Shown here: piece by piece, positions 12,773 through 15,757 of the stretch
Position numbering within the stretch: position 1 is the stretch's first letter
Layout: each line of letters starts with the position of its first letter
Assembly: GCA_004322275.1 (NCBI GenBank)
Contig: SCTA01000018.1
Span: 62,001 to 126,000 of the forward strand
Source: a bacterium
GTDB lineage: Bacteria; Desulfobacterota; Deferrisomatia; Deferrisomatales; BM512
Length of the DNA: 64,000 nucleotides
Direction: 5' to 3'
Position numbers and translations under genes: made by a program
The notes under the pieces: model-generated
Database searches by the model: none
What the model was told of the DNA's origin: nothing
What the model saw: only the letters and a program-made list of their open reading frames with translations

Positions 12773-12788
12773 TTCCTAACCGGAACGA

Positions 12789-12825
12789 CAAAAGGGCCGT
12801 CCAACACTGGGCGGCCCTTTCTTAT
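12789..12825. terminator. Bidirectional terminator, GGGCCG family
   Basis: AAAGGGCCGTCC-AACACT-GGGCGGCCCTTT followed by CTTATT. It ends the PpiD-like gene on the plus strand and the beta-propeller gene on the minus strand. Its core is shared with the terminators at 14739, 15522 and 50247. Confidence 0.88.
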
Positions 12826-12839
12826 TCCATCAGCACGGT

Positions 12840-13913
12840 TCATCTTATCTTCAGGGCATAAACGGTCTTGCCGGTAGTGAAGTAAAGCATGGAGCCGGAA
12901 ATAACGGGGGTTTCGTTTATCTCGCCGTCGGCCCTGAACCGCCAGGTCTCTTTGCCTGTATTCGCGTCGAGCGCGTAAAGATTGTTGTCCCAGCTCCCGA
13001 AGTAAACCCTATCATTCTCCACCACCGGCCCGGTCATCACCTCCGCCTCGAATCGCCAAAGCTCCTTCCACGTCTTTTTGTCGAGTTTGTATAGGCGGTA
13101 TCTGGGCACCTTTGGCAGAAAATCGCCGTATTCCCTCGGTTCGACCGTGTCGGTCACGTAAATCGAATCGCCAGTTATGGCGGGCTCTCTTTCTATCCAG
13201 CCATCGCTGAACTTTTTCTTTCCGATATCCTCGCCGGTCTTAGCGTCCAGCGCCCACAGGTAAGACCCGTCGCCGACGTACAAAACTCCGTCCGCCAAAA
13301 TCGGGTCTGCGTCTATGATCCCGCCAAGCTCGCGCTCCCAGTACTTTTTGCCGGTAAACGCCTCGTGCACCCAGACGAAACCGCCGTCCCCTCCGTAGTC
13401 GTAAACGGTGTTTCCCTCCCAGGAGAGGCCGCCGACCCGGCGGGGAAGGTCGCTCTTTACCCTTTTGTCCCTCGGCGGATATTTGTCGTAAGCCACCTTC
13501 ACGTCCTTGGGAACATTCTGAGAGAAAAGCTCGGCCCCTTTTGAAAGATCGAAGTAACGCAAGGCGATTACTTCTTTATCTATTCCCCCGTCCCCCTTGT
13601 AAAAAGTCTTTTGGTCCTCAACGCACAATATATCTCCAAACCTGGCGGGAGTCAGCACTTTCCGCCCGGATGCCGCCTTTAGAACTTCTTTGCCGCTAAA
13701 TGCATTTACTACCAAAATCGTGTTTGAAATTTCATCGGCTTCGCTGATGAATTCCGTATGCATGTAGAGTGCATCTCCAAGAAGCATCAAATCGTAAACG
13801 TTCCCGTCTCCGCGGGACGCCTTGTTTTGCGACCACACCAACTCGGGTAAATCGGCGGCAATGGCGGAGGCCGACAAAAGCACCCAAAGCACACCTGCAA
13901 AAAAAGCTCTCAT
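12840..13913 (-). CDS. Secreted PQQ-type (BamB-like) beta-propeller protein
   Basis: 357 residues with a Sec signal peptide (MRAFFAGVLWVLLSASAIA, cleavage before ADLPE). Repeated blades contain A-L-D-A-x-T-G-K/E and W-R-F signatures (LWALDAKTGEDIG, LYALDANTGKETWRF, TVYALKI), giving a propeller exported to the periplasm. It is too short and divergent to call BamB itself. Its ATG overlaps the stop of the upstream NlpC/P60 gene in ATGA, so the two are translationally coupled. An immunity or inhibitor role for its partner enzyme is possible; an assembly or sensor role is the alternative. Confidence 0.8.
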   Translation of the reverse strand: MRAFFAGVLWVLLSASAIAADLPELVWSQNKASRGDGNVYDLMLLGDALYMHTEFISEADEISNTILVVNAFSGKEVLKAASGRKVLTPARFGDILCVEDQKTFYKGDGGIDKEVIALRYFDLSKGAELFSQNVPKDVKVAYDKYPPRDKRVKSDLPRRVGGLSWEGNTVYDYGGDGGFVWVHEAFTGKKYWERELGGIIDADPILADGVLYVGDGSYLWALDAKTGEDIGKKKFSDGWIEREPAITGDSIYVTDTVEPREYGDFLPKVPRYRLYKLDKKTWKELWRFEAEVMTGPVVENDRVYFGSWDNNLYALDANTGKETWRFRADGEINETPVISGSMLYFTTGKTVYALKIR

Positions 13914-14584
13914 GGTTCCTTTTTCCCGGGTTTTTTCACGTACCGAAACCAGACCGGCTTTCCATATTGACTCTCGAACATCTTGGTGTTCGCAGGACCG
14001 TAATCAACCCCGGGCCTTCTTGCACTCCAACTGTCCCCGGTCATGCCGTTTTTGGTTTTTGGCGCTTTGGGGTCGTAAATAACCATGTGGCCTCCGCTTT
14101 TATTCCCGTACCAGCCCACGTCACCCGCTCTTGGCGAAACCCCGTCCGGTATATTCTCGAATTCTTTGGTGGTGGTAAAGTTTTTAGGGCCTTTATTCGG
14201 GTTTGCATACTTGTATTCATATGGAAATCCTGCGGCCTCGTATATCGCGCATGTGGAACCGGAACAATCAGCACCTTTCCCTTTAACAGCATTTGCTCCG
14301 GAATATTTTTCGCCCTTAGGGTAAGGAGTTTTGTCCCACTGTTTCGCCTGCTCTATTATTTTATTTCTCTCCTTATCGGTTAAATATTTGTCTTTGTCCG
14401 GGTAGTCCCTTTGCGCCACTTTAAGGCCGCCGATAGTAGGAGTGTGATTTTTTTCAGGGGCCGGGGGGCTTTTCGGAACTTTCGTGGGGGCAATCCGCTT
14501 GCCGCTGTTATTTTTTTTATCGTTTCCGCCAGCCCCGTCAAAAAAGTCTATAACCTTGTCCCGTATTCCGCTTAAAAATCCCAT
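13910..14584 (-). CDS. NlpC/P60-like cysteine peptidase/amidase without signal peptide
   Basis: 224 residues from the ATG at 14584 (AGGAG 7 nt upstream); a longer in-frame start has no SD. The N-terminal 70 residues are a lysine/proline-rich linker (GNDKKNN, TKVPKSPPAPEKNH). The catalytic half has the NlpC/P60 nucleophile motif A-D-C-S-G-S near residue 107 and a histidine block G-G-H-M-V-I-Y near 170. Such enzymes cut peptidoglycan peptides or amide bonds, but no secretion signal is visible. The gene is visibly more A+T-rich than its neighbours, suggesting transfer. It overlaps the secreted beta-propeller gene by 4 bp. Confidence 0.75.
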   Translation of the reverse strand: MGFLSGIRDKVIDFFDGAGGNDKKNNSGKRIAPTKVPKSPPAPEKNHTPTIGGLKVAQRDYPDKDKYLTDKERNKIIEQAKQWDKTPYPKGEKYSGANAVKGKGADCSGSTCAIYEAAGFPYEYKYANPNKGPKNFTTTKEFENIPDGVSPRAGDVGWYGNKSGGHMVIYDPKAPKTKNGMTGDSWSARRPGVDYGPANTKMFESQYGKPVWFRYVKKPGKKEP

Positions 14585-14738
14585 TTCATTTCTCCTTTTA
14601 CACCGCGTTGTCGCCTTTTGCCTCACTCAAAGGAGTGATTTCCCGATTGTAAAACTCAGACGGGTTCACGCGGCGCAGAAAAAACGATTTTTTATCCGGC
14701 GATTACAAGAACTTACGGGATACAGGAATCAGGGCATG

Positions 14739-14775
14739 CAAAAGGGCCGCCCAGTGATGGACAGCCCTTTATATT
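14739..14775. terminator. Terminator, GGGCCG family
   Basis: Imperfect stem AAAGGGCCGCCCA-GTGA-TGGACAGCCCTTT with TATATTTT after it on the plus strand and TGCATG after it on the minus strand. It closes the XRE gene on the minus strand and separates it from the NlpC/P60 unit. Confidence 0.7.
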
Positions 14776-14790
14776 TTCACTCAATATTAT

Positions 14791-15012
14791 TTATTCGTTC
14801 CCATCAAGGAGTCTGGCGGGAGGCACCCCGAGAGCGCGAGCCAGTTTGATTATGTTCAAAAGGGCGACGTTTCGCTCGCCCCGCTCGACGCTCCCCACGT
14901 AGGTCCTGTGGATTCCGGAAAGCTCGGCGAGCTTCTCCTGAGAAAACCCCGCCTCATATCTGAGACGGCGCAGAGTATCCCCGAAAGCAAGCAACTCTTT
15001 CTTGTTCGCCAT
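14791..15012 (-). CDS. Small XRE-family helix-turn-helix regulator
   Basis: 73 residues, essentially one HTH_3 domain: [21 protein letters not shown], then the recognition helix [15 protein letters not shown] and the closing helices [15 protein letters not shown]. Size and pattern resemble restriction-modification controller (C) proteins and phage-type repressors, but no restriction or methylase gene is beside it. No good SD precedes the ATG, so expression may be low or the message leaderless. A perfect 22-bp inverted repeat begins 31 bp upstream, a natural candidate operator. Divergent from the PEGA lipoprotein gene. Confidence 0.88.
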
Positions 15013-15042
15013 GCGAACGATTTCAGGGCAATACCGCCTATG

Positions 15043-15090
15043 AGTCTACAGCCTATGAGTAGCATTATTGCTACTCATAGGCTGTAGACT
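15043..15090. promoter_or_regulatory. Perfect 22-bp inverted repeat with a third half-site; candidate operator
   Basis: Arms 15043-15064 and 15069-15090 are exact reverse complements separated by TTAT. The box CCTATGAGT occurs at 15037-15045 and again at 15052-15060, with its complement ACTCATAGG at 15073-15081, giving three copies. It lies in the divergent gap between the XRE regulator and the PEGA lipoprotein. The arms lack the GC-then-T-tract design of a terminator. Confidence 0.8.
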
Positions 15091-15170
15091 TCTTTATTTC
15101 CAGCACCTTATTATCTCTTACGCACCACGACATAAAGCCACCACTCCAAATCATTGAAAGGAGCGAGTTT

Positions 15171-15512
15171 ATGAAAAAGGCGAGGTTGTTTCTTGTCTGC
15201 GTTTTAGCGCTTATGATGTTTGCCGGATGCTCGAAAACGACAACCGCAATCAGGTCGGAGCCTACAGGCGCTACAGTATTCGTCGAAGGGAAAGACGAGC
15301 CGATAGGCAATACGCCCTTCTACTACGATTTCGACAAACTGATGGGCTGGCTCCAGGGTTTCGGACTGGAGACAAAGCAGGTAATTCTTAAGTTCGTAAA
15401 GCCCGGCTATGCGCCCGAGACCACTCAGGTTATGAAAAGCAGCGGGGCTTTGATAGAGGCTGCAAAATGGCCGCAAGACGTGTTCATGCGCATGAAAAAA
15501 GAAGATAACTAG
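15171..15512 (+). CDS. Small PEGA-domain lipoprotein
   Basis: 113 residues. The lipoprotein signal peptide ends in the lipobox F-A-G-C (C20). A PEGA-like segment follows (SEPTGATVFVEGK, then IGNTPF), a small beta-domain common in surface lipoproteins; the second half (QVILKFVKPGYAPETTQV) completes it. Strong AAAGGAG SD 7 nt before the ATG. Stands alone, ended by the terminator at 15522, and shares its upstream region with the XRE regulator, which may control it. Confidence 0.85.
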   Translation: MKKARLFLVCVLALMMFAGCSKTTTAIRSEPTGATVFVEGKDEPIGNTPFYYDFDKLMGWLQGFGLETKQVILKFVKPGYAPETTQVMKSSGALIEAAKWPQDVFMRMKKEDN

Positions 15513-15521
15513 CACCAGACG

Positions 15522-15560
15522 AAAAAAGGGCCGCCCCGAAATGGACGGCCCTTTCTTTTT
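15522..15560. terminator. Terminator, GGGCCG family
   Basis: AAAAAAGGGCCG-CCCCGAAATGGA-CGGCCCTTTCTTTTT, 10 bp past the lipoprotein stop. A plus-strand intrinsic terminator, also usable on the minus strand. Confidence 0.9.
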
Positions 15561-15576
15561 ACTTTTTCTTTTTTTC

Positions 15577-15755
15577 AAACGGCGCAGGATTTTGCCGCCG
15601 GGCGAGGAGTTTTCCCTTCGCTTTTAAAGCCCGGCGCGGTTTTTCGTTCCCGGCGAGGAATCCCGCAGCGAGAGGGCGAGGCAGTAGCAGCGCTACGGCG
15701 AGCCCTTAAGCGAGGACATGACGACGCCGGGGGCGAAAAGGATGCGCCGGTTTTT
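15577..15755. repeat. Large imperfect hairpin repeat, copy 1
   Basis: Outer arms (CGGCGCAGGATTTTGCCG region and the complement-like CGGGGGCGAAAAGGATGCGCCGG region) enclose an inner stem with GGCAGTAGC-AGC-GCTACGGC. Copies 2 and 3 near 34110 and 50118 have the same plan. No gene is contained; this is the 3' region of the outer-membrane protein at 15758. Confidence 0.6.
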
Positions 15756-15757
15756 CC

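Follow-up and report, generated by a model that had tools for sequence, protein, structure and literature searches.

The locus

The window (the whole stretch of bacterial DNA that was analysed, 64 kb in length) contains a long palindrome between two divergently transcribed genes, one encoding a 73-residue regulator and the other a putative lipoprotein (Table 1). The palindrome comprises two arms of 22 nt (15043-15064 and 15069-15090) that are 100% complementary, separated by a 4-nt TTAT spacer. A third CCTATGAGT box is set by a direct repeat of 15-bp spacing. The perfect 22-bp arms, the TTAT centre and the third box had all been placed correctly by the original prediction.

Table 1. Coordinates of the genes, operator elements and putative promoter elements in and around the palindrome (positions in the window).
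Feature	Position	Strand	Basis or remark
Low-GC block, ~3 kb	12773-15757	unstranded	In relatives the flanking genes are present without it
PQQ-repeat gene in block	12840-13913		
NlpC/P60-like gene in block	13910-14626	-	Sub-threshold Pfam match
Gene of 73-residue C (controller) protein, XRE/HTH_3 fold	14791-15012	-	PDB phmmer, PADLOC
OR, proximal (proposed repressing) half	15032-15048	-	17.4 of 40.5 bits; contains third box, 15037-15045
Putative C-gene -35, TAGACT	15043-15048	-	First bases of OR
OL, distal (proposed activating) half	15049-15064	-	23.2 bits, same matrix
Central TTAT, separating the OL sites	15065-15068	unstranded	
Mirror copy of OL, toward the lipoprotein gene	15069-15084	+	Matrix
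Putative sigma-70 promoter (TAGACT-18-TATTAT) for the lipoprotein gene	15085-15114	+	9/12 match
Gene of 113-residue putative lipoprotein	15171-15512	+	Lipobox FAGC; sub-threshold PEGA match

The regulator is a C protein

The nearest relatives of known structure found for the regulator by a phmmer search of the PDB are C.AhdI (5.8e-18) and C.BclI (2e-17), with C.Esp1396I lower down, and its best PADLOC model is Control_protein (4.6e-23). In the alignment with 3clc the residues T36, Y37 and R46 of C.Esp1396I, which contact the DNA, are identical in register, while S52 is replaced by N. Mutagenesis of C.Esp1396I has indicated that T36, Y37 and R46 are important for DNA binding (PMC4041747). Its sequence places the regulator in the C-protein family of type II restriction-modification (R-M) systems. 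This is confirmed by the genomic setting of its homologues, since many of them adjoin restriction enzymes (of the DraIII, PvuII, ScaI and HaeIII families) or methylases. The regulator was originally described as an XRE regulator; it does have the XRE/HTH_3 fold, but it is a C protein rather than a generic member of that class.

Stand-alone C homologues also occur elsewhere, e.g. several in Acidobacteria. We note that at the acidobacterial loci L022, L027, L016 and L010 a stand-alone C-like gene with a canonical C operator has CBASS-type (cyclase, capP), Fic or RES-domain genes in its vicinity in place of R-M genes, and C proteins may control other defence or toxin-like modules. At a further locus (L009:4989-6089) the C-like domain is N-terminal in an ORF of 366 codons, possibly fused to another domain.

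The operator of the C gene

The operator was studied using 80 homologous loci from other genomes, including those of Acidobacteria, Chloroflexi, Proteobacteria, Actinobacteria and Planctomycetes. A matrix of 33 positions was iterated from a consensus read off the upstream DNA. It is based upon 62 distinct sites, has an information content of 35.6 bits, and gives the consensus TGCTACTCATAGTCTGTAGACTTATAGTCATCA for the 33-bp OL-OR operator. An operator scoring >15 bits is found upstream of 71 of the 80 homologues, where the maximum in ~300 shuffled regions was 2.0; the homologue scores are somewhat inflated because the matrix was fitted on those same loci, the window itself being excluded from the training. 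In 46 of the 71 loci the operator ends 18-19 nt ahead of the chosen start codon.

The held-out site on the minus strand of the window, at 15032-15064, scores 40.5 bits and lies 19 nt before the ATG of the C gene. Leaving aside the mirror copy described below, the next-best match to the matrix anywhere in the 64 kb is -3.2 bits. The arrangement agrees with the layout of the published C-box, in which two quasi-palindromic dimer sites with a conserved central GT occupy ~35 bp overall (PMC3115060). On these sequence criteria, the identification of 15032-15064 as a complete canonical C operator is strongly supported. Other HTH genes in this genome and in the congener (identities of 41% and 48%) are without a C operator.

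Since the held-out match covers the whole of 15032-15064, the third box is OR; OL together with the initial bases of OR makes up the palindrome's left arm. The proposal that this is an autoregulatory operator array was right in kind, in that the regulator is of the C family and the operator is conserved before its homologues, but the third box is the standard OR and not an extra element. The palindrome had also been thought far longer than a usual XRE operator; its length is explained by the ~33-35 bp of a normal C operator with its two dimer sites, the outer half of which is here mirrored.

The palindrome is unique in the genome

The runner-up among perfect inverted repeats in the window has 12-nt arms (loop up to 10), and 12-nt arms were also the longest obtained in 20 Markov-1 simulated sequences. 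The 22-bp inverted repeat is far above chance expectation. A search of the genome for further copies had been proposed with the original prediction. Three copies of the 12-mer CCTATGAGTAGC are present in the 2.88-Mb genome, two in the arms of the palindrome and one on contig 39, which overlaps an ABC-permease ORF at its 3′ end and is without operator match or context. A repeat family is ruled out, the palindrome being unique in the genome. Two sites with two mismatches, on contigs 29 and 32, were rejected; by our own calculation ~1.5 such sites would be expected by chance, and on the matrix the two score ≤1.9.

The palindrome was also sought in relatives, and it was found in none of 395 genomes of the phylum. 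Again none was found in viral contigs, and an Rfam search gave no match. When the 395 genomes were searched by pattern for mirrored operators, the locus in the window was the sole match, and neither a second operator-like site (up to 5 kb on each side) nor a head-to-head operator pair was found at the 80 homologue loci. These searches of the phylum, the viral contigs and the homologue loci used fixed patterns, which diverged versions may escape. A Granulicella homologue (L043) has a 13-bp inverted repeat of another sequence (GAGTACATAGGCT, with a loop of 14 nt) that overlaps its OL, at ~87 to 48 nt upstream of the start of the C gene. It is not a second copy of the operator.

The mirrored half-operator and the lipoprotein gene

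On the plus strand the matrix scores 25.2 bits at 15069-15101, wholly from the first 22 positions, which are identical to those of the C-gene operator. The last 11 positions score -8.4 bits, which is lower than at any of the 71 homologue sites (minimum -4.8), and the mirror copy is therefore without OR; only OL and TAGACT have been duplicated. The end of the palindrome arm coincides with the putative -35 on the lipoprotein side. Between this and the putative -35 of the C gene lie 36 bp, which are exactly two 16-bp OL sites plus 4 bp. The putative TAGACT-18-TATTAT promoter is the sole promoter-like match in 14600-15700, although with 0.8 such matches expected by chance this is a weak call. The ATG of the lipoprotein gene is preceded by a GAAAGGAG ribosome site. 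The original span of 15043-15090 does hold the palindrome, but the putative functional unit is larger, extending from 15032 (in OR) to ~15114 (the -10 of the divergent promoter).

The product of this gene had been called a PEGA lipoprotein. The lipobox is present, but the PEGA match of 19.3 bits falls just short of the Pfam cut-off of 20.8 bits. The phylum contains only weak partial matches to the protein, without the operator, and no relatives were found in plasmids.

The matrix gives a probability of ~1.6e-4 that two independently maintained OL sites would be identical at 22 positions. The perfect symmetry of the arms therefore suggests either that the copying was recent, for instance by a template switch, or that the arms continue to correct one another.

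A model for the function of the palindrome

In the C.Esp1396I switch a dimer bound at OL recruits sigma and activates transcription, and a dimer bound later at OR displaces the polymerase (PMC4041747). We propose, with a probability that we put at about 0.7, that the palindrome comprises two back-to-back C operators. Through OL-OR the C protein would control its own gene, and the mirrored OL would serve to switch on the lipoprotein gene with no means of shutting it off. At a low level of C protein a dimer on OL would bring sigma-70 RNA polymerase to the TAGACT -35, turning on the C gene; at a higher level a second dimer on OR would shut it off. The mRNA of the C gene is probably leaderless; the conserved T located 7-8 nt before the start codons of the homologues, and the TGAAAT found 7 nt before the ATG in the window, fit the reported C genes, among which leaderless mRNAs are common (PMC4824078). 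The mirrored OL and its TAGACT would provide the lipoprotein gene with an activator site and a -35 but with no repressor site, so that this gene would be turned on by C and would stay on. By analogy with the known switch we infer the binding of C, the activation of both promoters and the missing shut-off on the lipoprotein side.

Some considerations count against two outputs. The divergent promoters may compete instead of both firing, the call of the lipoprotein promoter is weak, and the mirrored OL is without counterpart in relatives, so that conservation cannot support its function. Alternatively, the operator on the minus strand could be an ordinary C operator, and the mirrored OL might have no part in activating the lipoprotein gene. 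The copy might tune the autoregulation of C, acting as a site for a third dimer ~20 bp from the first that competes or cooperates at the C promoter, or it might be inert, the by-product of a template-switch (quasipalindrome) mutation. The identity of the 22-bp arms points to recent copying and the copy is present in no relative, both of which are consistent with this. However, a -35-like hexamer lies at the end of the copy at a usable distance from TATTAT, the copy is situated between the two starts, and the gene downstream has a ribosome site, all of which count against it. We regard a non-activating mirrored OL as unlikely, at somewhat better than one chance in five, and prefer the model of two back-to-back operators.

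The genes lie in a probably acquired block

The PQQ-repeat, NlpC/P60-like, C and lipoprotein genes together constitute a block with a GC content of ~0.49 over most of its length, compared with ~0.60 around it. The flanking genes, encoding SurA-like and outer-membrane proteins, are directly adjacent in the congener and in two members of another genus of the same family (L108, L109, L110). As the flanking genes adjoin each other in three relatives, the block has probably been gained in this lineage; loss elsewhere is the alternative.

Near-identical terminator-like stem-loops (AAAGGGCCGCCC-N4-ATGGACGGCCCTTT) are located at 12791-12820, 14741-14770 and 15525-15554. They bound the block and split off the PQQ-NlpC unit from the C-lipoprotein unit, and only two copies, both weaker, are found elsewhere in the genome. 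The stem-loops might have aided insertion of the block, or of its two units, by homologous recombination. The NlpC-like protein has no relatives in 297 genomes of the phylum, in plasmids or in viral contigs. Its similarity to a family of phage minor tail proteins (phrog_329, 2e-4) is weak, and its fold predicted from the single sequence (pLDDT 33) is unusable.

Models of R-M proteins gave no match to the four genes of the block, and no R-M gene was recognised among the other ORFs located at 9-22 kb on reading their translations. Because no linked REase or MTase gene was recognised, the regulator is filed as a C-family regulator and not as part of an R-M system. The locus might then be the remnant of an R-M system that is without its enzymes, with the C gene and its operator left over and the palindrome having no present role, as the association of many homologues with REase or MTase genes could suggest. 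Against this, both the C gene and the operator, with its canonical spacing, are intact, the block is lineage-specific with intact neighbours, and C homologues stand alone elsewhere; we regard a remnant as very unlikely.

A structural element (a cruciform, a bidirectional terminator or an attachment or recombination site) is the most improbable reading of all. With their length and a loop of only 4 nt the arms are capable of folding, and a terminator scan flags the palindrome owing to the length of its arms. Against this, it lies between divergent starts rather than convergent ends, it is unique in the genome with no match in Rfam, and each arm matches a protein operator that is conserved across phyla at sites without any palindrome. 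Nothing speaks for the cruciform or for the attachment or recombination site of the original prediction. Neither an integrase nor recurrence was found, and the block edges (~12.8 and 15.6 kb) are far from the palindrome.

Implications

The palindrome is a real feature that is largely explained as a C operator with a mirrored activating half. More tentatively, and at slightly less than even odds, we suggest that this is a C switch that has become detached from R-M and has been rewired through its mirrored activating half-operator, giving a divergent device with a self-limited regulator and unlimited output of the envelope lipoprotein in a small acquired block. None of the individual parts is new; their stand-alone, mirrored arrangement with two proposed outputs was found in no other genome searched.

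C proteins are studied as timers of restriction enzymes. The locus suggests that a C switch can drive other acquired genes with no restriction enzyme nearby, and that its operator may acquire a second output in a single step by mirroring the activating half. The mirrored half-operator also provides a natural test of the model in which OL activates and OR represses, as OL is present alone at a real, if putative, promoter.

Comparison with known C-protein systems

The regulator is of the same protein family as C.AhdI, C.BclI, C.Esp1396I and C.PvuII, with the same length and DNA-contact residues. The operators are likewise similar, with an OL-OR of ~33-35 bp that has a central GT and lies just upstream of the C start, in a geometry consistent with leaderless mRNA. 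Unlike the C loci of type II R-M systems, the window has no recognised REase or MTase gene, and the outer half of the operator is mirrored before a divergent lipoprotein gene.

The OM site of Esp1396I resembles the proposed arrangement in that a lone C-dimer site governs a second gene. OM represses the M (methylase) gene from its transcription start (PMC4041747), whereas the lone site in the window is upstream of the -35, the position from which OL activates. The divergent kpn2I.C and kpn2I.M genes of the Kpn2I system provide another parallel, with C-type control beside a divergently transcribed gene. By contrast, the C.Kpn2I site has a different motif and is located within the gene of that protein itself, where binding creates a roadblock to elongation. 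Related XRE proteins that are unlinked to R-M systems have been reported (PMC6237814).
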